DNA of 38,645 nt from Acidobacteriota bacterium (GCA_022567475.1 JADFGZ010000004.1:1-38645), one strand, 5' to 3'; shown: positions 1 through 26,755, numbered from the stretch's first letter. The notes: generated by a model not told the origin, from the letters alone. Numbers and translations are program-made.

Positions 1-763
1 AGTTCAGCGACGAAATACGGCGGCAGTTGTATGAGTGGATCGATGAGCGGCCGGATCTGACCTTGCGCCAGTTGCCGTCGCGGCTGCACGGCGAATTGGG
101 GTTGAAGGCCAGTATCGGACGGCTGTGGAGCGTGTTGCGCGAGATGGGGCTGCGCTTAAAAAAAAGTCGGTCTACGCCGCCGAGCAGGATGCCGCCGCCG
201 TCGCACGGCGGCGTGCGCTGTGGCGTGAGCAGGTGAGCAGGATCGACCCGGATCGGTTGATTTTCCTGGACGAAAGCGGCATCGCCACGGACATGACCCG
301 CCGCCGCGGACGAGCTCTTGGGGGCCGGCGCGTGCGCCAAGGCGTGCCTGCGGGGCCTTGGCGAACCCTCAGCATCTTGGGGGCGATTCGGCGGTCCGGA
401 TGGGTGGCCGCGATGAGCATCGAGGCAGCGACCGACGGCGAGATCTTCCTCGCTTATCTGGAGCGGGTGTTGGGTCCGCAACTCCAACCCGGCGATGTCG
501 TGGTGATGGACAATCTGGCGGCGCACAAGGTCGCCGGGGTGCGCCAGCAGATCGAATCACGTGGCGCCGAGTTGCTCTATTTGCCGCCCTACTCACCCGA
601 GTTCAACCCCATCGAGCAGTGCTGGGCCCAGATCAAGCAACATCCGCGGGCCGCCCAAGCCCGCACGCTTTCCGCCCTCGAACAAGGCCTCACCGATGCC
701 CTCGCCGCCGTGGCTCCGCACAACGTTCAAGCTTGCTTCCGCCACTGCGGCTATGGACTATGA
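1..763 (+). mobile_element. IS630-family transposase, 5' end outside window, joined by a -1 frameshift
   Basis: DDE transposase that would cut and paste an IS630-type element. The first frame (open from the window edge to a stop at 234-236) encodes a helix-turn-helix part with the motif [15 protein letters not shown]. The second frame (in use from about 158 to the stop at 761-763) encodes the catalytic domain. Its acidic residues are visible: Asp in FLDESG, Asp in VVMDN, and Glu in the [12 protein letters not shown] segment. The frames meet at an eight-A run (158-165), and moving back one base there restores a continuous IS630-like product. Programmed slippage at A runs is known in this family, so the element may be functional rather than broken. 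The left inverted repeat is off-window, so I could not define the element ends. Nothing recognisable follows in 764-919. Confidence 0.85.
156..166 (+). other. slippery A8 run, probable frameshift site of the IS630 transposase
   Basis: TTA is followed by eight A and then G, where the reading frame of the transposase must move back by one base. It contains A-AAA-AAG, the usual -1 slippery heptamer. Either ribosomal frameshifting or transcriptional slippage would work. A plain inactivating indel cannot be excluded from one copy. Confidence 0.6.
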
Positions 764-8055: not shown

Positions 8056-9282
8056 TCATGACCGAAACCGAGGCACCTGTAGTTTTCCCTTCACCAATTC
8101 TTCATACAATGCATCATATTCATGAGAGTTCAAGGGCAAATCTACGGTTTTTTTCCGCATCGCCGATAGATACATCGCATTGATCAATTCAATAGCGGAG
8201 CGGGCACTTTTGCCGGTGACCAGGGGCTCCCCTCCAAAAGAAATCGCATCGATAAAACTGTTCATGATCACCGCAAATCCATTTACAGGTTTGGCGTTTG
8301 ACTGCCATTTGTGGGGCCGCTTCACTGCCCCAAGTCGTCGTAGAATCCTTGCAGCAATTTTTTCCTGTACCTGGTCTTGCTTCAACCCATAGGATCTCCA
8401 CGAAATAGCAGGTTGATCAACAATACCCTTGAGTTCGGTAACCATCTCGGTTAACGGGCCCTCGTACGTTCCCACCAAGATCTCCTCATCTTGATCATAG
8501 GTCAGGCTTTCCACCTCCGGCATGACAATAATTCCCTTATCCCCTTGAATCTGTCGGATGCTATAACCTCTTGGATGAGTTATCGTGAATTGAAGAGAGC
8601 CCATAGCTCCACTTTCAAAAAGGACGTTGGCACAGACAATATCTTCGATTTCTGCCTCATGGAGATGATTTCCAACCATGGCCGACACTTGGACAGGTTT
8701 TCCCATCAACCAACAAATGAGGTCCACATCATGGCTGGTCTGGTTCATCAGAACACCCCCACCAGCATATTGAAAAGTCCTTCGCCATATATCGCGGTGG
8801 TAGTAACTCTCCGGACGAAACTCCCCCCACATCCAAAGTACTCGCAATGTCGCCCCAATCGTGCCGGAATCAATCAACCGCTTGACAATCTGAGAAGACC
8901 GGTGGGTTCGATATTGATGGCCCACAGCAATTTTCAAATTGTTCTTCTGTGCTACGGCCAGCATGGCATCCGCTTCAGATACTCGAATAGCGAAGGGTTT
9001 CTCCATGAACACATGGACCCCGGCTTTTAGGAAATCCAATCCGATCGGATAATGGAGGTGATGAGGAACGGCAATAGATACCGCATCGACGATGCCTGCA
9101 TCTAGCAAATGGCGATAGCCGGTAAACGCACCAATCCCCAACTCACCGGCGACCTGAACGACCTCAGTTTCATCAACGTCAACGAGGGCCACCAGATCGA
9201 TTTGTTCATTGGCTTGAGCGGCCTGGATATGGGCTCGGCCGATGCCCTTTATTCCAATCACACCGTAGCGAACTTTTTCCAT
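8056..9282 (-). CDS. Gfo/Idh/MocA-family NAD(P)-dependent oxidoreductase
   Basis: 408 residues. The N-terminal Rossmann fold begins YGVIGIKGIGRAH (glycine-rich dinucleotide loop). The family signature EKPFA follows at about residue 94. The C-terminal substrate domain carries GGGVLMNQTSHDVDL, with the His/Asp characteristic of inositol, glucose or glucose-fructose oxidoreductase relatives. These enzymes oxidise sugar or cyclitol hydroxyls with NAD(P). Substrate specificity cannot be read. The ATG at 9282 is chosen over a GTG at 9288 because AAAGGGG lies 5 nt upstream. The gene looks AT-richer than its neighbours and sits between the integrase remnant and the PqqD operon, on the opposite strand from the operon, consistent with acquired DNA. 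Confidence 0.9.
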   Translation of the reverse strand: MEKVRYGVIGIKGIGRAHIQAAQANEQIDLVALVDVDETEVVQVAGELGIGAFTGYRHLLDAGIVDAVSIAVPHHLHYPIGLDFLKAGVHVFMEKPFAIRVSEADAMLAVAQKNNLKIAVGHQYRTHRSSQIVKRLIDSGTIGATLRVLWMWGEFRPESYYHRDIWRRTFQYAGGGVLMNQTSHDVDLICWLMGKPVQVSAMVGNHLHEAEIEDIVCANVLFESGAMGSLQFTITHPRGYSIRQIQGDKGIIVMPEVESLTYDQDEEILVGTYEGPLTEMVTELKGIVDQPAISWRSYGLKQDQVQEKIAARILRRLGAVKRPHKWQSNAKPVNGFAVIMNSFIDAISFGGEPLVTGKSARSAIELINAMYLSAMRKKTVDLPLNSHEYDALYEELVKGKLQVPRFRS

Positions 9283-9654
9283 AGACACCCCTTTGACCTG
9301 CCCCCGGTTGTTGGTCCACTTTCCATGTTAGTCCATACGCCGTTTGAGGGATCAATTCCTATTTTTGCCAAAAAGTAACAAATATTTTCTCCTTTTCCCT
9401 GAAATCCTGCTCTGCGCAAATGTTTCGGCAACCAAGGATCAGGAATATCTCCTTTTGTTGCAGAGCATTAGCCGATTTTACAGAGAATCGGAAATCGGCC
9501 CACAAAGTGCTTTTTACTCATTGGTTCAGTGCGTCGGAACCAAAAAAAGTCCACGACTATTTATTGTAAGTCATGGCGATTATACCAATTCAGTTGCGCC
9601 TTCTGCCTTAGGAGTTACGGTTACGGTGGATGCGGATGCTTGGTCACCATTGCA
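9283..9654 (+). other. AT-rich divergent spacer upstream of the PqqD operon
   Basis: 372 bp that should hold the operon promoter. An inverted repeat CCGATT-N8-AATCGG lies at 9472-9491, followed by another AATCGG. No convincing -35/-10 pair was found. The only open frames are a 49-codon ORF at 9420-9569 without a ribosome site and a TTG-initiated frame whose TGA (9656-9658) overlaps the ATG of the PqqD gene. Neither is a supported gene. A peptide precursor could be hidden here but cannot be shown. Confidence 0.4.
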
Positions 9655-10137
9655 ATGATTAACCGGCAATTCATTATCAACGCTCCGTCGGTAGTGTCCG
9701 AGATCATCGACGGGGAAGTTGTCATCATGAATTTGAAATCGGGCAATTATCACAGCAGCCTAGGAATAGGCGCGGTTGTGTGGGCGTGGATCGAAGAGCG
9801 GAAATCGGTCCGCGAAATCGAGAGGCTCACTTCCCTCCGCTACGATGCCTCTGCAGAGGAAATCACGGTCACGTTAAAGGCGTACTTCGACCGCTTGGTT
9901 GACGAGGACCTCGTGCGCGAGGTTGCCGTTGAAGATCCGGATCGCGCAAACGCACAGGACTATAACGCGTATACTCCTCCGACCAAAGAGCGCTATGAGA
10001 CCCCCGAACTCTGCACTTACACGGATATGCAGGATCTCCTGCTACTCGATCCAATCCACGATGTCGGCGACGCAGGTTGGCCCAAGCCAAGGGACGATAA
10101 GTCCGCCGAACCCTCGCGAGCCGCGAAGGAAGGTTGA
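9655..10137 (+). CDS. PqqD-like RiPP recognition element protein with lasso-leader-like C-terminal tail
   Basis: 160 residues. Residues 1-90 are a PqqD domain (winged-helix RiPP recognition element). It has the family pattern of a beta hairpin with GEVVIMNLKSGNYH, then GIGAVVWAWIEE, and the final helix FDRLVDEDLVREV. In RiPP systems such domains bind the leader peptide and present it to modifying enzymes. The 70-residue tail is the unusual part: Y114-x2-P117-x-L119, then TDMQD, LLLLDPIHDV (128-137) and GWP (141-143). The Y-x2-P-x-L spacing is that of lasso-peptide leaders, which are recognised by B1 (PqqD-like) proteins. The ATG at 9655 is the only start that keeps the domain whole; its Shine-Dalgarno is poor. 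First gene of the operon, 36 nt before a glycosyltransferase. The tail function (self-encoded substrate, docking mimic or kinase target) is inference. Confidence 0.85.
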   Translation: MINRQFIINAPSVVSEIIDGEVVIMNLKSGNYHSSLGIGAVVWAWIEERKSVREIERLTSLRYDASAEEITVTLKAYFDRLVDEDLVREVAVEDPDRANAQDYNAYTPPTKERYETPELCTYTDMQDLLLLDPIHDVGDAGWPKPRDDKSAEPSRAAKEG

Positions 10138-10173
10138 CGGGGGGAGCGCGAACCGGTCGCCGGGACGAAATCC

Positions 10174-10914
10174 GTGGCACAAGTCGCTTACAACCTGGAA
10201 CTGCCCGCTGGCGCAAAGGATCTTTCCGTCAGCGTGATCCTGATTGTGCGAAACGGCGAGCCGTTCATCGCCGAGGCGCTCGGTAGCGTCTTCCGCTCGG
10301 AGACGAAGCCCGCCGAGGTGCTTGTCATCGACGACGGATCGACAGACCGCACGGTAGAGATCGCCGGCGGATTTCCGCGGACTCGGGTCGTGGCCCATCG
10401 CGCGACCGGTACCGCCAACGCTCGCAACCAGGGCATCGAAATGGCGCGGGGCGATCTCATCGCGTTCATCTCTCATGACGACATTTGGGAAGCCGGCAAA
10501 CTCGATTGCCAGGTTGGATTCATGCGGCTGAACCCGGAGGTCGGGTATACGGTAACGATGGTCCGGCATTTTCTTGACGGGGGCGCGAGAATTCCCGATG
10601 GATTTCGTGCCGAGCTGCTGGAAAAGCCGGTTCCAGGCATGATCATGGAGGCGCTTGTCGCGCGGAAGCAGGTCTTCCGGCAGGTCGGCCTCTTCGACTC
10701 GAGTTATTCGGTGAGCGAAGATACGGATTGGTTCGCGCGCGCCAGGGATGCTAAGGTGCCCATGGCGGTTCTTCCGCGCGTACTCGTGAGCAAGCGGGTG
10801 CACGGGACGAACGCCTCGCTCACAACGCCATCAATCAACGCTCAATTGCTGCGCGCCATGCGTGGGTCGATCCGGCGCAAACGGCAAGGCAAGGAGGCGC
10901 CACTTGCCGGATAA
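10174..10914 (+). CDS. GT2-family glycosyltransferase with altered DxD motif
   Basis: 246 residues, a single GT-A domain without membrane segments. It starts with the GT2 opening VSVILIVRNGEPFIAEAL and has VIDDGSTDRTV. The metal-binding position reads SHDD instead of the DADD/DVDD of its two relatives in this operon, so the first Asp of DxD is Ser. The acceptor-side acid motif SEDTDWF, with the catalytic-base Asp, is intact, as is the downstream GLFD. GT2 enzymes move sugars from nucleotide sugars to an acceptor in the cytoplasm. Here the acceptor is inferred to be the operon's peptide or a glycan intermediate. It starts at GTG 10174 with GGGA about 9 nt upstream, and its stop overlaps the next gene by 11 nt. 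Confidence 0.85.
   Translation: MAQVAYNLELPAGAKDLSVSVILIVRNGEPFIAEALGSVFRSETKPAEVLVIDDGSTDRTVEIAGGFPRTRVVAHRATGTANARNQGIEMARGDLIAFISHDDIWEAGKLDCQVGFMRLNPEVGYTVTMVRHFLDGGARIPDGFRAELLEKPVPGMIMEALVARKQVFRQVGLFDSSYSVSEDTDWFARARDAKVPMAVLPRVLVSKRVHGTNASLTTPSINAQLLRAMRGSIRRKRQGKEAPLAG
10891..10897 (+). promoter_or_regulatory. Shine-Dalgarno AAGGAGG fixing a TTG start
   Basis: A near-perfect AAGGAGG lies inside the end of the upstream glycosyltransferase gene, 6 nt before TTG 10904. It makes TTG the likely start of the next glycosyltransferase instead of the GTG at 10862. Confidence 0.75.
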
Positions 10915-11653
10915 CGGTGCCCCGCCGCTGATTAGCGTCATCATTCCATGCTACAACACAGAAGCGTATCTCGCCGAGGCGATCGAAAGCGCGATTGCTC
11001 AGGATGTCGGCGCGCTGGAGATTATCGTCGTTGACGATGGATCGACGGACGGAAGCTCCCGCGTGGCGCGGCGGTTCGGTCCGCCGGTGCGCTATGTAAG
11101 CAAAGCGAACGCCGGTATCAGCTCGGCGCGAAATCGTGGCGTCGAGCTTTCTGCGGGCAGATACCTTACCTTCCTCGATGCGGACGATCTGTGGCCGGAA
11201 GGAAGCCTCCGCCTGCGGATGGAATACATGCGGTCGCATCCGAACACCGTATGCGTATTTGGCGCTCTAGAGGAGTTTGTCAGTCCCGACCTGGATCAAG
11301 ACGAAAAATCCCGCCTCGGTAGGACGCATGCCGCCATGCCCGCACGCTTCGCGGGGTCTATGCTGATCGAGCGCACTGCATTCCTTCGCGTCGGCCTCTT
11401 CCATGAGGGGCTCAAGGTGGGTGAGATGCTCGATTGGGTCGCGCGAGCAGAGCAAGCCGGTGTTGTAATGTGCCTGCTCGAGGCCATCGTGCTACGCCGG
11501 CGCATCCATGGCAACAATACCGTCACGCGGGAGAAGGCGCGGCGAAACGACTATCTTCGCGCGCTGAAAATGTCGCTCGTTCGCAGGCGCGCCGCGGCCG
11601 CAGCGGACACCTCGAACGCCCCGTGCGGCGCGGGCAACATGACGGAGGGGTGA
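10904..11653 (+). CDS. GT2-family glycosyltransferase with altered catalytic-base motif
   Basis: 249 residues if translation starts at TTG 10904 (AAGGAGG 6 nt upstream). It has a GT-A fold: ISVIIPCYNTEAYLAEAI, VVDDGSTDGS, and an intact metal site FLDADDLW. The position that reads SED or GED in the other two enzymes reads GEMLDW, so the usual catalytic-base Asp is Met. The rest of the block (GLF...DW.ARAEQAG, then a RRRIHGNN segment) aligns with its paralogues, which shows that the three GT2 domains of this operon are duplicates of one ancestor. The gene overlaps its predecessor by 11 nt and the next start lies at its stop codon, so translation is coupled. Donor and acceptor sugars are unknown. 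Confidence 0.82.
   Translation: MPDNGAPPLISVIIPCYNTEAYLAEAIESAIAQDVGALEIIVVDDGSTDGSSRVARRFGPPVRYVSKANAGISSARNRGVELSAGRYLTFLDADDLWPEGSLRLRMEYMRSHPNTVCVFGALEEFVSPDLDQDEKSRLGRTHAAMPARFAGSMLIERTAFLRVGLFHEGLKVGEMLDWVARAEQAGVVMCLLEAIVLRRRIHGNNTVTREKARRNDYLRALKMSLVRRRAAAAADTSNAPCGAGNMTEG
11644..11648 (+). promoter_or_regulatory. Shine-Dalgarno GGAGG deciding between GTG 11650 and TTG 11656
   Basis: GGAGG is 1 nt from the GTG at 11650 (too close) but 7 nt from the TTG at 11656, so TTG is preferred. Together with TTG 10904 this gives two consecutive TTG starts with strong ribosome sites in one operon. Confidence 0.55.
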
Positions 11654-11655
11654 AC

Positions 11656-12933
11656 TTGATTGGCCGGATTGCAAACCAGGACTTCTCGCTCTTCGGCTTG
11701 TGGCCGTCGCACGAGCAAGACATCATGCTGCGGGCGGCTATTCTGAACGGCGAGCCTGCCCTCGCCGCCTTTCACGAATGGCTCGGCCTCATCGATCTTG
11801 ATCAGGATTTCGATCCCGCGACGTTTCGTCTCCTGCCGCTTCTTTACGGCAATCTCCGAAAGCTGGGTGTCACGCACCCGATCATGGGCCGGCTCAAGGG
11901 CGTCTATCGGCTTACGTGGTATAAGAACCACAAACTGTTCGACAGCATGCGACCAGTATTGGCGGCGCTGGTCCATGCCGGCATTCGCACGATGCTGCTC
12001 AAAGGCGCGCCGCTTGTCCTCAAGCACTACTCCAATCATGCCCTGCGGCCGATGACCGACATTGACGTGCTCGTGCCCGCCGCTTACGCGCCCCGGGCCA
12101 TCGACGTGCTGAAGAGTCTCGGCTGGCGGCCTTTTGACGATCCCTCGCCGGACGCCTTTAAGTATCGCCATGCCCTGATGCTCTCGAGCGCGGACAATCG
12201 CGAGATCGACATCCATTGGCATTGTCCCATCGAGTTTGCCGGATCCGGAAATGACGATTTCCTTTGGTCTTCCGCCCGCCCGCTCGATTTCAACGGGGTC
12301 GCGACACTCGCGCCGGACCCGACGCGCCACCTTATCGTGACGATCCTTCACGGATTGCGTTGGAACTCGGAGCCGCCTATTCGCTGGATTCCTGATGCAA
12401 TGATTCTCCTGCGGACCTCAGGCGGCGATATCGCCTGGGATGAGTTCGTCGGTTTCGCGAGGGATCAGCAGTTGACCTGCCGCTTGCATCTAGGCCTCTC
12501 GTACCTTCAGAATCGCTTCGATGTTCCCATTCCGGAGGGTGTCCTCGCGGAACTGCAAAGGGTCCGCACGTCCGTGATAGAAAGGATCGAAAACACGGTC
12601 GTCCTTCGGGATATTCGACCGCTCTATTTGCGACCAGCCGGCAATCTGTGGATCATTTTTTCGAATTATTGCCGGTACGCGCGGGGGGCAGGACCGGTGG
12701 AGTTCCTGGTCGGCTTTTCGCACTATCTCCGGTTCCGCATGCAACTGCGCGGGCGCCTGGAGATACCCCGCGTAATCGCGCGTGGTCTCTGGAAGCGGCT
12801 TCTGGCTTTCATTGGCATATGGCAAGCGGGCCAAACGGGAAGACGGACTGAAGAAGACAGGACAAATTCTTCGAAGCAAACGGGGATTCGACGGCTGTTT
12901 GGGCGGCCCATTTTCTTAACAAGGTCAAGGTAG
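11656..12933 (+). CDS. nucleotidyltransferase-family protein (NTP_transf_5/PF14907 type)
   Basis: 425 residues from TTG 11656. The family core is clear: LLKGAPLVLKHY at about 114-125, then RPMTDIDVLVP, giving Asp135 and Asp137 as the metal-binding pair. DIHWHC supplies the third acidic residue (Asp185). The C-terminal third is helical. Proteins of this family recur in lasso-peptide clusters beside HprK-like kinases. In the pseudomycoidin system the homologue (PsmN) adds hexoses to a phosphorylated C-terminal serine. An equivalent role on a phosphorylated peptide fits the kinase encoded downstream, but that is inference. The start overlaps or abuts the previous stop, and the ABC exporter gene follows 7 nt after its own stop. 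Confidence 0.85.
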   Translation: MIGRIANQDFSLFGLWPSHEQDIMLRAAILNGEPALAAFHEWLGLIDLDQDFDPATFRLLPLLYGNLRKLGVTHPIMGRLKGVYRLTWYKNHKLFDSMRPVLAALVHAGIRTMLLKGAPLVLKHYSNHALRPMTDIDVLVPAAYAPRAIDVLKSLGWRPFDDPSPDAFKYRHALMLSSADNREIDIHWHCPIEFAGSGNDDFLWSSARPLDFNGVATLAPDPTRHLIVTILHGLRWNSEPPIRWIPDAMILLRTSGGDIAWDEFVGFARDQQLTCRLHLGLSYLQNRFDVPIPEGVLAELQRVRTSVIERIENTVVLRDIRPLYLRPAGNLWIIFSNYCRYARGAGPVEFLVGFSHYLRFRMQLRGRLEIPRVIARGLWKRLLAFIGIWQAGQTGRRTEEDRTNSSKQTGIRRLFGRPIFLTRSR

Positions 12934-12940
12934 CCATCGC

Positions 12941-14701
12941 ATGACCTACCATCGGCGAACATTCATGGCTAGGATCGAGGCGGCAATACGCCGACGGGTC
13001 GGCCTAACAGATGCCGCCGCGTGGCGGATGTTCGGGGGATATTATCGCCCGCATGCCCGCTCCCTGTTTTTCTATGCCCTCGTTTCATCCGGCCAATCGC
13101 TGACAATCCTGCCGGTTCTGTTTCTCATTCGATATGCCTTCGATGTTGCAATCCCGCAGGGCGATGTCCGCCTCCTGGTCTATTTCGGCGTGGGCATCGT
13201 GATGATCCGGGTGCTCAATGGCGTCATCGTGCTCGCGAGGCGCTCCTACATCGTGCGGATCATCAATGGGGCCATCAGGGATCTGCGGCACGACCTGATT
13301 TCACGGCTCTACGTCCTGTCGCGAGACTTTCACGCGCGGTCCGATCCGGCGCGGGTCCACACGTGGATCGTGCAGGAGACCGGACGCGCCGACAACCTGA
13401 GCAATAAGCTGTTCTCGGCAATGTTGCCTGCGGCGCTTTTGAGCCTGGTGCTTTTCATCTACCTGTGCGTTTTAAGCTGGACCATGGTTCTCCTGATGAT
13501 TGTGGTCGCACCGGCGGTCTGGATCACGATGGGGATCACCGGCAGCCATGTGCAGCGGCACGTGAAGGTGTTTCAGCACTCCTTCGAGACGTTCAGCAGG
13601 GGCGTTTTTTTCGTCCTGCGTCATATTGATCTCACGTTCATTCAGGCTTTCGAACACGAAGAAACGCGCCGGCAAGCACAGCATCTGGAAGATCTCAGCA
13701 GGACTGGCAAAAATATGTCTTTAAGTTTTGCCGTGCATAACGAGGTGCAGCGGAACATCGTAGGGCTGGCCGGCATCCTGGTTCTGGTCTTCGGCGGCGC
13801 CCAGGTGGCGATCGGGCAGATATCGATCGGCGAGTTTCTGACCTTTTATTTGGCGGCCTCCCTGCTCAACGGATCGGTCAATACAGTGATTGGAAGCATT
13901 CCGGATGTCGTCGCCGGCAACGAATCCCTGTCGAAGTTGCGCAGACTGATGGAAGACGGTCCGGTTCAACCTTATTCCGGCTCCAAGCAAATCGCTTTCA
14001 CCGGCCGCATCATGTTGAGCAAGGTTTCCTTTGATTACGGCGGCGATGATCCCGTGCTCGTAAAAATCGACCTGGAGATCCCTCCAGGTGCGCGGATTGC
14101 CATCGTAGGATCGAATGGAGTCGGGAAGAGCACGATCTTCAATCTCATCCTCGGCTTCTACCGGCCGACATCCGGTCAGGTCCTCGCCGACAATGTTTCC
14201 TACGACGGAATCGATATGCGTTTGCTCCGGCGCGAGATCGGAGTCGTCAGGCAGCGCGCGACATTTTTTGCCGGGACCGTGCTCGAAAACATCACCTACG
14301 GCTGGCCCGATGCATGCCTTGACGAGGTCGTGACGGCATCCAGGCTCGCGGGAGCTCATGATTTCATAACCGCGCTAGAGGACGGATACAACACGCAGAT
14401 TGGGGAGAGTGGAATTCTGCTTTCGGGAGGCGAGTGTCAGCGGATCGCGATTGCTCGGGCGCTTCTCGGCAAGCCGAAACTCCTCATACTGGATGAGCCG
14501 ACGAACCACCTCGACGCCGATTCGGTCGAGGCACTGATGCAGACGTTGCTCATGCTCGATTACCGTCCGGGAATCGTTTTGATCAGCCACGACATGCGCG
14601 TCGTAGGCTTTGCGGAGCAGATCTTCCGACTGGAGGAGGGCGTCCTCGTGCGCGTTACGAGGGCGAAGGCCGAGGACCTAGTTGCCGCCGTCGGCGCCTA
14701 A
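12941..14701 (+). CDS. ABC exporter, fused membrane and ATPase domains
   Basis: 586 residues, a half-transporter that would act as a homodimer in the inner membrane. An N-terminal six-helix exporter domain (about 40-330) contains hydrophobic stretches such as LLSLVLFIYLCVLSW. The ATPase domain has Walker A GSNGVGKST (390-398), signature LSGGECQ (494-500), Walker B LLILDEP (514-520) and the switch His in LISHD (His550). There is no N-terminal C39 peptidase, so it does not cut a leader itself. This layout matches the D-type exporters of lasso-peptide clusters. Export of the operon's modified product is inferred. ATG 12941 has AAGG 10 nt upstream and follows the previous stop by 7 nt. Confidence 0.92.
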   Translation: MTYHRRTFMARIEAAIRRRVGLTDAAAWRMFGGYYRPHARSLFFYALVSSGQSLTILPVLFLIRYAFDVAIPQGDVRLLVYFGVGIVMIRVLNGVIVLARRSYIVRIINGAIRDLRHDLISRLYVLSRDFHARSDPARVHTWIVQETGRADNLSNKLFSAMLPAALLSLVLFIYLCVLSWTMVLLMIVVAPAVWITMGITGSHVQRHVKVFQHSFETFSRGVFFVLRHIDLTFIQAFEHEETRRQAQHLEDLSRTGKNMSLSFAVHNEVQRNIVGLAGILVLVFGGAQVAIGQISIGEFLTFYLAASLLNGSVNTVIGSIPDVVAGNESLSKLRRLMEDGPVQPYSGSKQIAFTGRIMLSKVSFDYGGDDPVLVKIDLEIPPGARIAIVGSNGVGKSTIFNLILGFYRPTSGQVLADNVSYDGIDMRLLRREIGVVRQRATFFAGTVLENITYGWPDACLDEVVTASRLAGAHDFITALEDGYNTQIGESGILLSGGECQRIAIARALLGKPKLLILDEPTNHLDADSVEALMQTLLMLDYRPGIVLISHDMRVVGFAEQIFRLEEGVLVRVTRAKAEDLVAAVGA

Positions 14702-14730
14702 GTGGCAACAACCGATTTTGGAGTTACTCG

Positions 14731-16539
14731 ATGGATTTTCCCAAAAGGTCTGAAATCGAACAGGAAGCCTTCTTCGACCATGTCTATGAAAAGACGTTGG
14801 AGGCCCAATGTGCCCGCGGCGCCATTGAACATTTCTTCGACGTCGCGGGAACGAAGGTTCGACTCCGCTTCGCGGGCGATCGCCTCGTGCGGGAGCTTGT
14901 GCCCGCTCTCGAACACCTGAGGGCCGCCCCGAGCGCGCAGGCGGACGTCACATTCAACATATGGGACAGCGAGACGACCGGCGTCGAGATGCCGCCGCCG
15001 CCTTGCGACCGCACGCATTTTACGGATCGAGGCGACTTCTGGGGATTTAAAAGCGAACGTTTTCGGACAGCGTTCCATTGGTTCGATTACTCGGTCAATT
15101 TGATGGACCGCCATTCGAAGACGGCGGTCTACTGGGTTCAGACCGGCAATACTCTGCCTTATTGGACAAAGGCGTCACCCCTGCGGACCCTATTCCACTG
15201 GTGGATGGAAATGAACGGTCGCCAATTGCTGCACGCGGCCGCGGTTGGCAACCGGAATGGAGCTGTACTCATTACCGGACCGGGTGGGATCGGGAAATCG
15301 ACGACGGCGCTCGCAGCCCTCACTCACGGGATGAATTACGTCGCCGACGATTATCTAATTGTCGGCCTCGATCCCGAACCTAAAGCCTACAGCCTTTACA
15401 GCACCGCGAAGCTCAACTCCGATCAGGTGGGCACGTTTCCACAGTTGGCTCCGCTGATCTCCAATGGCGACTTCCACGGCGAGGAGAAGGCCATGATGTG
15501 TCTTTTTCCGCATTTCACGCCGCAGATTTCACCTGCCCTGCCGCTCCGCGCGATCCTTACGCCGCGCATTACCGGAGGAAGCGAGACCACGTTAGCGCCC
15601 GCCGACCGGGAAACACTTTACCGCGCGGCCTCTTTCACCACCATGTCGCAGCTGCCGAGTGTCGGCCGCCACACGCTCGACTTCATTGGTAGGCTCACGG
15701 AATGCCTGCCGGGGTTCGATCTCGCACTGGGCTCCGATCTTGCGGGAGTCGTACGGGAGATAGACCGCTTGCTTGCGCTGCTGGAGGCAGACGTAGGCGC
15801 GTCCTTTATTAGCTCTGCGAGCCGTACCTCAGCGGCCGGTGCAGCTCCGCTCGTGAGCGTGATCGTTCCCGTCTACAACGGGGCCGCGTTTCTACGGGAC
15901 GCGATCGAGAGCATTCTCGGTCAAGGCTATCCGTCAATTGAGATCATAGTGGTGGACGATGGATCAACGGACGACATTGACGGCGCGGTTGCATCGCTCT
16001 CTGCAAATATACGCTTCTTCCAACAGAACAACTCCGGCGTTGCCGCCGCCCGAAACCGGGGAATCCGAGACGCATTAGGAGAATTCATCGCTTTTCTCGA
16101 CGTGGACGACCTCTGGCCGGAGAACAACCTGAAAGTGTTGGTTGACGTCTTGCGCGAACAGACCCACATCGACGTCGTTCACGGCCACGGGCAGCTCATG
16201 GAGCTTGATGCCACGACTGGTGAATACGAGTATGTCGGCAATCCCCGCGAGTCTTTTCCGTTCTCTATCGGAGCCGCGCTGTTCCGGCGCAGTGTCTTTG
16301 AAACCGTGGGCCTATTCGACACGAAACTACGGTTCGGGGAGGACACTGACTGGTTCACTCGTGCCCAAGAAATCGGAGTCGTCCTTAAAAGGCTCTCGCA
16401 AGTGACCTTATTGGTCCGCCGCCATGAGCAGAACATGACGCGTGGTAAGTCTCTGATCGAGCTCAACACACTACAGGTCTTTAAAAAGGCGCTCGACCGC
16501 AAACGGCAACGGGATGGCAGGAGTTTGGTGCGGTCTTAG
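14731..16539 (+). CDS. HprK-like serine kinase fused to a GT2 glycosyltransferase
   Basis: 602 residues, two domains. The N-terminal part (1 to about 360) is an HPr-kinase-like protein of the type found in lasso-peptide clusters. It has the lead-in LLHAAAVG, P-loop GPGGIGKST (183-191) and, after it, MNYVADDYLIVGL with the conserved DD pair. It lacks the dedicated N-terminal domain of true HprK and there is no HPr gene nearby. The C-terminal part (about 372-602) is a GT2 domain beginning LVSVIVPVYNGAAFL, with VVDDGSTDD, an intact metal site FLDVDDLW and an intact GEDTDWF. A single polypeptide could thus phosphorylate and glycosylate one substrate. Known relatives (PadeK, PsmK) phosphorylate the C-terminal Ser of a lasso peptide. 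ATG 14731 has GGAG 7 nt upstream. There is no stop or frameshift between domains, so the fusion is real in this sequence. Confidence 0.88.
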   Translation: MDFPKRSEIEQEAFFDHVYEKTLEAQCARGAIEHFFDVAGTKVRLRFAGDRLVRELVPALEHLRAAPSAQADVTFNIWDSETTGVEMPPPPCDRTHFTDRGDFWGFKSERFRTAFHWFDYSVNLMDRHSKTAVYWVQTGNTLPYWTKASPLRTLFHWWMEMNGRQLLHAAAVGNRNGAVLITGPGGIGKSTTALAALTHGMNYVADDYLIVGLDPEPKAYSLYSTAKLNSDQVGTFPQLAPLISNGDFHGEEKAMMCLFPHFTPQISPALPLRAILTPRITGGSETTLAPADRETLYRAASFTTMSQLPSVGRHTLDFIGRLTECLPGFDLALGSDLAGVVREIDRLLALLEADVGASFISSASRTSAAGAAPLVSVIVPVYNGAAFLRDAIESILGQGYPSIEIIVVDDGSTDDIDGAVASLSANIRFFQQNNSGVAAARNRGIRDALGEFIAFLDVDDLWPENNLKVLVDVLREQTHIDVVHGHGQLMELDATTGEYEYVGNPRESFPFSIGAALFRRSVFETVGLFDTKLRFGEDTDWFTRAQEIGVVLKRLSQVTLLVRRHEQNMTRGKSLIELNTLQVFKKALDRKRQRDGRSLVRS

Positions 16540-16557
16540 CGGCAGCTTAATTTCGGT

Positions 16558-16593
16558 GAGTCGGATGAGTCGGATGAGTCGGATGATACGGAT
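16558..16593 (+). repeat. 9-bp tandem repeat at the start of the SDR gene
   Basis: Three perfect GAGTCGGAT units and a fourth (GATACGGAT) lie in tandem, then decay further. Being a multiple of three, the repeat keeps frame. Each unit offers another in-frame ATG (16565, 16574, 16583, 16592, then 16595 and 16604). Confidence 0.8.
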
Positions 16594-17497
16594 GATGCGA
16601 CGAATGATCACGTGGGCGGCCTCTTTTCTTCGGAGCCCCCTTACCAGAGCAGCAGCACCCCCCGCCCGTCTACGCACGTTGCTCGTCACGGGCGCAGCCG
16701 GCCATGTCGCAAGTTGCCTGCGTCCGGGGCTGCGCGAGATGTTCCCGCGCCTGCGGCTCGTCGATATTCGCCCGGTCGCGAATCTCGCGCCGGTGGAAGA
16801 GTTCATGCGCGCCGACCTGTCCGCACCCGGGGTTGCGGAGCGAGCTGTGGCGGGAGTCGATGCCATCGTTCATCTTGCAGCTGTAGCGAAGGAGGCGCCC
16901 TTCGAGATGCTCCACGACGCCAACATCATAGCCACCTATAATCTGTTCGAGGCCGCTCGCCGGCAAGGTGTCCGACGAATCGTTTTTACGAGCACGATGC
17001 ATGTCATGGGGTTCTACCGGCGTGATGAGCCGTTCGACGAGCAGAGCCCACTCAGACCGGACAGCCGCTATGCAGTCAGCAAGGCATTTGGTGAAGCGCT
17101 CGCGCGCCTCTACGCTGACAAGCACGGCCTCCGTGTAGTGTGTCTTCGGATTGGTCACCTGATGCCCACGGAGGACGAAGCGGAGCCTGGCAATTGGGCC
17201 AGTCCCGAAGATCTGCTGTCACTGGTGCGCATCGGTCTCGAACATCCCGACCTTCGCTTCGAGGTTTTTCATGTGATAGCGAACTACGAGGGCGCACCCG
17301 TCCGCATGTCGAGCGCGACCCGTTATGGATTCGTGCCGCGCAGGGCGACCGAGACCTTCGCAAGGACTCTTGCCAGAGCCCGCTCGGCTTGGCCATCGGA
17401 TTCGGTTGCCCAAATGAGTCAAGGCGCAACCTTCGCCTCCGCGGAATATTCCGGTGCTCCGCACGAATCGCCGGTGGATCTGAAAACGAACTCTTGA
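16565..17497 (+). CDS. uronate-dehydrogenase-like extended SDR (NAD-dependent epimerase/dehydratase family)
   Basis: About 310 residues. The Rossmann start is TLLVTGAAGHVASCLRPGL, with the last Gly of TGxxGxxG replaced by Ala. Further motifs are IVHLAAV, NIIATYNLFEAAR, IVFTSTMHVMGFY and the catalytic YAVSK. The PFEM...NII..YNLFEAAR and RYAVSKAFGEALARLYADKHG-type blocks resemble bacterial uronate dehydrogenase (Udh), which oxidises glucuronate or galacturonate to the aldarate lactone. A sugar-modifying role beside three glycosyltransferase domains is plausible. The start is uncertain: ATG 16514 overlaps the previous gene, and six in-frame ATGs lie in a 9-bp tandem repeat. I chose the first ATG after the previous stop. 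The C-terminal 50 residues do not match the family well. Confidence 0.75.
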   Translation: MSRMSRMIRMMRRMITWAASFLRSPLTRAAAPPARLRTLLVTGAAGHVASCLRPGLREMFPRLRLVDIRPVANLAPVEEFMRADLSAPGVAERAVAGVDAIVHLAAVAKEAPFEMLHDANIIATYNLFEAARRQGVRRIVFTSTMHVMGFYRRDEPFDEQSPLRPDSRYAVSKAFGEALARLYADKHGLRVVCLRIGHLMPTEDEAEPGNWASPEDLLSLVRIGLEHPDLRFEVFHVIANYEGAPVRMSSATRYGFVPRRATETFARTLARARSAWPSDSVAQMSQGATFASAEYSGAPHESPVDLKTNS

Positions 17498-24961: not shown

Positions 24962-25708
24962 TCACACTGCTAAGAAAGGCTCTGCCACCAAAAGCAGGCG
25001 GTAGGGCCATCGCCGCTTGATCATGCAATTGCGCAATCCAGCACGGCTCGCAGTTTGCAATAATTCTTCCTTGCGGAACGCCTGTTCAAACGAGACGAGA
25101 CCGTCAATGCGGCTCATGGCACAGGTTGTAAAGAAAGGATTGAACAAGCGGAAGAAATAGTAGGGAACAGGGTGTCTTTCCAAGTCACTGACGATTATGG
25201 CTCGGCGTGCCCACCGGCTCATCATCCGCAAAAGTTCGACGGCTTGATCCTCAGAAAGGTGATGCAAAAAATGAGAACAAGTAACAAAATCAAAGGATCG
25301 ATCTGGCACAGGCGCGTGAAATGCGTCGGCGGAGAAAGGGTGCAACTTGGGATATGCCGCGAGTTCATCCCGAAACAGTGCGAGATATCTGTGCCAGTAC
25401 TCCAACGCAAAGACTTCCGCTTCGAGCCCCTGCTGTTGTGCCCATTTCAGGATAGCAAATGGCAGGTCGCAGGAACCGCTGGCAATATCTAGGACGCTGA
25501 ACCGGGTAAGTTTATGGCAGCTAACTTGCCCCTCCAAAACTTCCAGCAAAAGTTTTTGACTTCCAAAGATCCTGTTGATGCGACGGATGTCTAACAAATT
25601 CCGTCGCACCTCCTCATCGGGCATATTCCCGGCATCGATCAGTTCCGGGCGCAAAACTCGCGAAGAGAAATCAGGCACTTTGAGGTGTAGGATCGAAGCC
25701 AGTCGCAT
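24962..25708 (-). CDS. class I SAM-dependent methyltransferase, partner of type III PKS
   Basis: 248 residues. SAM motif I is VLDIASGSCDLPF at about 74-86, the acidic motif II lies in EVFALEYW, and FDFVTCSHFLHHLSE is the motif after strand 4. It starts 12 bp after the polyketide synthase stop, with AAGGAG overlapping that stop codon (TAAGGAG), so the two genes form an operon. In bacterial type III PKS operons such enzymes often O-methylate the alkylpyrone or alkylresorcinol product. That is the likely role, not proven. Confidence 0.88.
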   Translation of the reverse strand: MRLASILHLKVPDFSSRVLRPELIDAGNMPDEEVRRNLLDIRRINRIFGSQKLLLEVLEGQVSCHKLTRFSVLDIASGSCDLPFAILKWAQQQGLEAEVFALEYWHRYLALFRDELAAYPKLHPFSADAFHAPVPDRSFDFVTCSHFLHHLSEDQAVELLRMMSRWARRAIIVSDLERHPVPYYFFRLFNPFFTTCAMSRIDGLVSFEQAFRKEELLQTASRAGLRNCMIKRRWPYRLLLVAEPFLAV

Positions 25709-25720
25709 CTCTGCTGCTCC

Positions 25721-26755
25721 TTACCACTCTAGCAAGGCTACCTCAGCCGCAAAGCCAGGGCCCAGGGCTAACAGAATCCCCCGATCGCCCACGCGAGCGG
25801 AACCCGTTTCCAGGACATCGTGGAGCACAAATAGAACTGTGGGAGACGACATATTCCCGTAGTTCCGCAGGATTCGACGGGAAACGGCCAGATCGGCTTC
25901 GCTGAGTCTAAGCGCATCCTGAACGCGGTCAATCACCTTTCGACCGCCCGGATGGATCAACCAGTAACGGATATCTTTACGGCTGAGCCCTTGGGGGCAT
26001 AGCAACTCGTCGAGCACACGGTCAATGAGGGGAGGAGCTAGGTCAGGGATAGTAGGGGAGAGGATGATGCGGAGGCGTCCGTCTCGTTGTTCAAAACCTA
26101 CAGAATTCTGGCAGCTTGTGTCCAGCCATGAAGCGAAGCGGACGATGCGTGGGCCGGTATCCCCCCGACAAGTCAACAAGCAGGCAGCAGCACCGTCAGA
26201 GCAGATGGCATTGCCTACCAACGTCTCCAGTGTATCGTCAATGTAATATGCAGCGGAGCAAATCTCTACCGCCACCACCAGCACTCTGTGATCCGGATAG
26301 GCCAGGGCATGGTCATATGCGCGCTGCAGCGTCGGAAGGGCTCCGGCACATCCCAGACCCAATAAAGCCCCTCGTTGCACGCTTCGCGGTAGCTGCATTT
26401 CCTTAACCAGGATCGTGGCGAGGTCCGGGCAGAGATAACCTGTGCAGGAGCAAACAAGGATGCAATCGATCTCTTCAACGCCCAAGCCCGCCTTTGCTAG
26501 GCAGCGCTGCGCCGCCTGCCGGGCAATGAGCACCGCGCCTTCTTTATAACGGCGGTGCAATTCGTCCGGGCTCTCGTTTGCCGTCCCATTGATGGGATCC
26601 ATGTAAAGGTAACGATAGTCAATGTCGCAGTTGAAAAAGATCTCGCGCGCAATCGGACGGGTATAGCCTGTTATCCGCAACACCTCTTGCTGAGTAAAGC
26701 GCTGCGGTGGAACGGCCGTCGCCACCGATACGATGCGCGGCTCTGGTTTCTTCAT
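25721..26755 (-). CDS. type III polyketide synthase (chalcone/stilbene synthase-like)
   Basis: 344 residues. It belongs to the thiolase-fold family that extends an acyl-CoA starter with malonyl-CoA and cyclises it to pyrones, resorcinols or similar phenolics. The triad is visible: Cys136 in LLGLGCAGALP, His268 in YWLIHPGGRKV, Asn301 in NYGNMSSPTV. Other typical stretches are CILVCSCTGYLCPDL and the C-terminal LALGPGFAAE. The initial MKKPEPRIVSVATAVPP is a normal bacterial N-terminus; AAGG lies about 8 nt before the ATG. A methyltransferase gene follows 12 bp downstream. No oxidoreductase or prenyltransferase partner is adjacent. A 76-bp promoter-like repeat (26819-26894) lies upstream. Confidence 0.95.
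   Translation of the reverse strand: MKKPEPRIVSVATAVPPQRFTQQEVLRITGYTRPIAREIFFNCDIDYRYLYMDPINGTANESPDELHRRYKEGAVLIARQAAQRCLAKAGLGVEEIDCILVCSCTGYLCPDLATILVKEMQLPRSVQRGALLGLGCAGALPTLQRAYDHALAYPDHRVLVVAVEICSAAYYIDDTLETLVGNAICSDGAAACLLTCRGDTGPRIVRFASWLDTSCQNSVGFEQRDGRLRIILSPTIPDLAPPLIDRVLDELLCPQGLSRKDIRYWLIHPGGRKVIDRVQDALRLSEADLAVSRRILRNYGNMSSPTVLFVLHDVLETGSARVGDRGILLALGPGFAAEVALLEW

Follow-up and report, generated by a model that had tools for sequence, protein, structure and literature searches.

A seven-gene operon from an Acidobacteriota genome, at positions 9655-17497 of the window (the whole 38,645-nucleotide stretch of DNA that was analysed), appears to encode a kind of peptide-modification system that is widespread and has not been described before. 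An earlier reading made from the sequence only had found no obvious precursor, but the PqqD/RRE protein carries a strongly conserved, precursor-like C-terminal tail (window 9988-10134), which appears to be the missing precursor. At its end this tail has a near-invariant motif, DPIH[DE]V-x(3-4)-GWP, shared by homologues from many phyla. The interpretation favoured here, with a probability of roughly 0.5, is a RiPP-like modification system in which recognition element and substrate peptide form a single protein; a substrate located in the RRE protein's own tail would explain the failure to find a separate precursor.

Organisation of the operon

All seven genes lie on the plus strand with short gaps or overlaps between them, and Pfam and NCBIfam bear out the families named in the sequence-only reading, the kinase half being weak in Pfam and backed by invariant residues.

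9655..10137, plus strand: PqqD-family RRE protein with fused C-terminal peptide, 160 aa (PF05402, 34.7 bits against a cut-off of 23.4; Pfam)
10174..10914, plus strand: GT2 glycosyltransferase a (PF00535, 8.7e-25; Pfam)
10862..11653, plus strand: GT2 glycosyltransferase b (PF00535, 6.3e-33; Pfam)
about 11650..12933, plus strand: N, a PF14907 (NTP_transf_5) nucleotidyltransferase-like protein (6.6e-37; start codon uncertain)
12941..14701, plus strand: MsbA-type ABC exporter (ABC_membrane and ABC_tran; Pfam, NCBIfam)
14731..16539, plus strand: K-GT2, an HprK-like kinase fused to a GT2 domain (Pfam, NCBIfam, conserved residues and structure matches)
16514..17497, plus strand: SDR of the NAD-dependent epimerase/dehydrogenase type (PF01370, 3.2e-25)

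Relatives of GT2 b occur in nearly all homologous loci, and the PF14907 protein has a KG...R...DxD signature that is kept in 29 homologues. The exporter had been described as free of a C39 peptidase; Pfam indeed finds no such domain in 12941-14701, only ABC_membrane and ABC_tran. The top NCBIfam relative of the SDR is the NAD-dependent G6PDH Azf, which agrees with the earlier description of this gene as Udh-like. At its N-terminus the annotated SDR frame has a repetitive run of Met, Arg and Ser (SRMSRMSRMIRMMRRM, window 16514-16610), so the true start is probably downstream.

The kinase half of K-GT2 has a weak Pfam match (PF07475, 1.6e-5, below the cut-off of that family) and a match to NCBIfam HprK_rel_B at 2.1e-9. 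Its best solved relatives are the HPr kinase/phosphorylase structures 2qmh, 1jb1 and 1ko7, with E about 0.004. The Walker A motif, conserved His and Asp pair typical of HPr kinases are all present: H168, G-x-GKS (K189, S190) and D206-D207 are invariant across 23 kinase homologues. The NCBIfam HprK-related kinases A and B (TIGR04352, TIGR04355) are distant relatives of the domain, which scores about 20-39 bits against them, far below the 200-bit cut-off. A structure search with the whole K-GT2 protein had GT2 structures among the matches listed and is uninformative on the kinase half. The fusion as such has 22 relatives at 35-57% identity.

A precursor-like tail on the PqqD/RRE protein

The first gene of the operon encodes a discrete RRE followed by a linker and a tail in two parts:

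9682..9924, plus strand: RRE (winged helix) domain, residues 10-90 (pLDDT 95-98; 30% mean pairwise identity in 37 homologues)
9925..9987, plus strand: variable linker, residues 91-111 (9% mean pairwise identity)
9988..10023, plus strand: leader-like segment ERYETPELCTYT, residues 112-123 ([FYW]xxPx[LIVFM]xx[YF] motif)
10024..10083, plus strand: conserved core DMQDLLLLDPIHDVGDAGWP, residues 124-143 (conservation in 37 homologues)

The RRE is related to the leader-binding RREs of lasso and linear polyphosphorylated peptide (LPP) systems, with profile matches to TbiB1 (8e-20), PbaB1 (9x90), TfuB1 (6jx3) and LppB (9x8z). The leader-like motif, complete in 27 of 38 homologues, resembles the one found in the leaders of lasso and LPP peptides, and the tail consensus of these PqqD proteins reads [F/Y]xxPxLxKY[ST]DMQDLLLLDPIH[DE]VDxxGWP. 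Across the same 37 sequences, mean pairwise identity is 59% for residues 124-131, 73% for residues 132-143 and 14% after GWP. D132, P133, G141, W142 and P143 are found in 37/37 homologues, H135 and V137 in 36/37; this count leaves out the divergent PqqD of locus L062, a second copy in L014 and the 5'-incomplete L008. The first two have degenerate tails. The L014 cassette holds two PqqD genes (2248-2649 and 9799-10263), one with DPIHDV..GWP and the other degenerate (NVLFFSASYFIEEKGWP).

The core has no conserved hydroxyl residue: six of 38 tails contain no S/T/Y after D124, and Ser is absent there from twelve. Tail phosphorylation is accordingly doubtful, and so is the earlier expectation of a phosphopeptide recognisable by a +80 mass shift; the plain phosphopeptide reading is weakened further because the operon encodes no releasing peptidase.

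An AlphaFold model built from 28 sequences predicts that the leader-like segment is placed on the RRE with high confidence while the conserved core is left loose: pLDDT is as high for residues 111-120 (97) as for the RRE itself, and about 57-61 for residues 131-160. Short strands are modelled at residues 112-113 and 120-122, and the closest structures are the TbiB1-leader complexes 5v1v/5v1u. In solved RRE-leader complexes (PbaB1/LppB) the aromatic residue and Pro occupy one pocket region, a hydrophobic residue fills a second, and the three leader residues that follow lengthen the sheet (PMC13381572). With respect to Y114, P117 and L119, the predicted strands lie at these same leader-binding places, and we infer that the aromatic-xxPx-hydrophobic segment docks in cis on its own RRE.

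Conservation of the cassette

The PqqD-tail protein was located in 41 loci, of which 40 also carry K, 40 a GT2 gene and 37 a PF14907 gene. An ABC exporter lies within 12 kb in 23 of them, and 20 have the K-GT2 fusion. Nineteen loci were reached via K or are the window itself; among the other 22, which were reached via PqqD or the tail, 21 have K. The cassette occurs in at least eight phyla. Its components (PqqD, PF14907, in some cases the ABC exporter, K-GT2 and further GT2 genes) are kept on each contig that includes the PqqD gene, with the one exception of L023, which has neither PF14907 nor the K-GT2 fusion. In this the sequence-only reading is supported: the tailoring genes, of the paeninodin and LPP kind, form a conserved cassette with GT2 genes.

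A Gemmatimonadaceae contig (L018) has all seven genes in identical order, with the SDR in the equivalent position, and an SDR is present also in the plasmid locus L077. On the mobilizable plasmid NC_019735.1 of Crinalium epipsammum the cassette has an unfused kinase. Accessory genes vary by locus and include radical SAM/SPASM enzymes (in some loci only), sulfotransferases, a GFO/IDH oxidoreductase, an epimerase and an FkbM methyltransferase; some loci are rich in GT2, GT4 and sulfotransferase genes. Three consecutive Stf0-like sulfotransferase genes lie downstream of the cassette in L005 (13321-15520), and L021 has two similar ones. Downstream of several cassettes there are also proteins of roughly 460-480 aa without a Pfam match (L008 14279-15661, L011 13369-16202, L012 16784-18166); the one in L008 looks membrane-embedded, those in L011 do not.

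Searches for a separate precursor, cyclase or peptidase

Of 19 host genomes, 18 gave a match to a profile of the tail, as did 4/346, 6/399 and 5/297 genomes in samples from three phyla; the operon's own genome has one copy. No standalone tail was found in any of these searches. The matches fall solely inside open frames of 117-235 aa, and those that were read carry the PqqD domain. A tail-only match in G194:C61 lies in a broken frame, and the region around it, L055, gave no PqqD, kinase or motif match. A separate precursor was also sought by comparing 761 short ORFs around the cassettes all against all, and only PqqD and its antisense recurred in at least four loci.

No cyclase, leader peptidase or signal peptidase, SipW-like enzymes included, was found with Pfam among the scanned genes of the window, in agreement with the sequence-only reading, which had noted the lack of a cyclase and a leader-type peptidase in the flanks. 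The absence extends to the whole genome as far as an 83% complete MAG shows: PF13471 (B2 leader peptidase) has no match, and PF00733 (lasso cyclase) has a single weak one of 69 residues and 24 bits, on another contig. That reading would have been refuted by a cyclase belonging to the set or by homologous capsule or O-antigen loci devoid of an RRE, and both checks came out in its favour. An RRE is present in essentially every homologous locus, and in 34 genomes neither PF00733 nor PF13471 is ever adjacent to the cassette (positions compared by eye), the nearest match on the same contig being about 130 kb off; PF13471 is wholly absent from 14 of the 34. A defence-system assignment was tried with PADLOC, which gave generic ABC-ATPase matches only.

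Relationship to known peptide systems

Mycofactocin and PQQ systems combine a PqqD-type RRE with a peptide that has a nearly invariant C-terminal core, and mycofactocin also uses a GT2 enzyme, MftF, to which NCBIfam finds weak similarity in the operon. These systems have separate precursors (MftA/PqqA) and obligatory radical SAM enzymes, whereas here the precursor-like peptide is fused and radical SAM/SPASM genes accompany only some loci. With paeninodin/pseudomycoidin-type lasso peptides the operon has in common a B1-type RRE, an HprK-like K, a PF14907-type N and an ABC exporter D; unlike them, it has no cyclase C, no leader peptidase B2 and no separate precursor.

The closest published parallel is the LPP family, a cyclase-less group with HprK, NTP transferase, RRE and an MsbA-type exporter (Nat Commun 2026, PMC13381572). 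Its four-gene set of kinase, NTP transferase, RRE and exporter is found together in the window, the exporter being within 12 kb in only 23 of the 41 related loci; a discrete RRE of the same fold family, the lack of a macrolactam cyclase and the aromatic-xxPx-hydrophobic recognition motif are shared as well. LPP precursors, however, are separate proteins of 35-200 aa with a YxxPxVLxHQxIxFETxxS leader and variable C termini; a SipW-like signal peptidase cleaves them, and their Ser residues are phosphorylated by LppK, an enzyme that needs Ser (PMC13381572). The peptide described here is instead fused to the RRE, carries YETPELCTYTDMQDLL in place of that leader and has an invariant DPIH..GWP core without a conserved Ser; the window has no SipW-like peptidase, and about half of the loci have the K-GT2 fusion. 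Both for LPP and for paeninodin-type lasso clusters, defining features were tested that do not hold for this operon. The earlier claim that it differs from described clusters has to be tempered in that a cyclase-less family, LPP, had already been published in 2026 (PMC13381572). RRE surveys list fusions of RREs to enzymes, including GT2; no report of an RRE-precursor fusion was found in the passages covered or elsewhere in the open-access papers searched, nor any mention of the tail motif.

A proposed mechanism and its alternatives

The favoured reading, a substrate peptide fused to its own RRE, can be given a more specific form, which is put forward tentatively at somewhat below even odds: a self-presenting RRE, widespread and horizontally mobile, would carry, in one and the same protein, an invariant peptide that serves as substrate or primer, and on this peptide K-GT2 and the nucleotidyltransferase would build a conserved glycan or cofactor. 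The AlphaFold model and the motif suggest that (i) the aromatic-xxPx-hydrophobic segment docks in cis on the RRE domain of the same protein, much as leaders are bound in trans by lasso and LPP RREs, and (ii) this would leave the DPIH[DE]V-x(3-4)-GWP segment exposed. Judging from gene linkage, K, N and GT2 probably act on the tail: (iii) the HprK-like kinase (in many loci a fusion with GT2), together with the PF14907 nucleotidyltransferase and at least one GT2 enzyme, would modify the presented segment or build a sugar chain there, (iv) the SDR may make or oxidise a sugar, and (v) the ABC exporter, where present, would export the product. A core that hardly varies suggests that the product or carrier is itself conserved, comparable to PQQ and mycofactocin precursors, and is not a variable antibiotic.

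In the main rival reading the tail serves for docking or as a scaffold that recruits the kinase, the nucleotidyltransferase or a GT2 enzyme, and the true substrate is a glycan, a lipid-linked sugar or another protein. A docking motif for a partner protein would fit the extreme conservation of the core as well, and the division of the tail into two short sub-motifs, three or four residues apart, is like that of linear docking motifs; the lack of a conserved Ser/Thr/Tyr and of a releasing peptidase, and the multiple GT2/GT4 genes and sulfotransferases of several loci, point the same way. Against it, the leader-like motif is predicted to sit in the RRE groove in cis, where it would block the binding of a separate leader, and the loci share no other conserved peptide that might be the substrate. 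Both readings predict that the tail is essential, and they differ on whether it gets modified; on balance the tail is favoured as the substrate, docking being the less likely but still a substantial alternative.

It is improbable that the operon is part of an ordinary exopolysaccharide or capsule locus to which the PqqD and kinase genes are mere accessories. GT2 enzymes, SDRs and MsbA-type exporters are common in such loci, and the many GT2s, GT4s and sulfotransferases of some cassettes would fit plain glycan synthesis. LPP clusters, moreover, are embedded in capsule loci (PMC13381572). The PqqD-tail gene, however, is linked with K, N and GT2 in almost every one of the 41 loci, across phyla, while other polysaccharide genes vary, and Wzx/Wzy-type genes are absent among the scanned genes of the window. 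A further, very unlikely reading is that this is a canonical lasso or LPP cluster and that its cyclase, peptidase and precursor are encoded elsewhere or were lost from the incomplete MAG. It would match the kinase, N, RRE and D genes and the 83% completeness, but it is very hard to reconcile with the same arrangement in 34 genomes without an adjacent cyclase or leader peptidase, 14 of them lacking any PF13471 match, and with the failure of the short-ORF comparison to yield a standalone precursor.

With the tail as substrate, the consequences reach beyond this operon. RiPP mining seeks short, separate precursor genes, so an RRE-fused precursor escapes detection, and whole families may be miscounted as having no precursor. 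That the core is nearly invariant from phylum to phylum, also on the plasmid of a cultured cyanobacterium, points to a conserved product, and it offers a direct handle on the activities of PF14907 enzymes and HprK-like tailoring kinases.

Other genes in the window

A GFO/IDH/MocA sugar oxidoreductase gene at window 8056-9288 is divergent from the operon. It may belong to the system, since the L003 cassette contains a GFO/IDH gene, with 27% identity to the one in the window. A DDE-superfamily transposase-like gene (window 125-763) lies by the contig end. On the minus strand, a type III polyketide synthase gene (chalcone/stilbene synthase-like) is followed by a methyltransferase gene (window 24962-26755), possibly a small polyketide pair.
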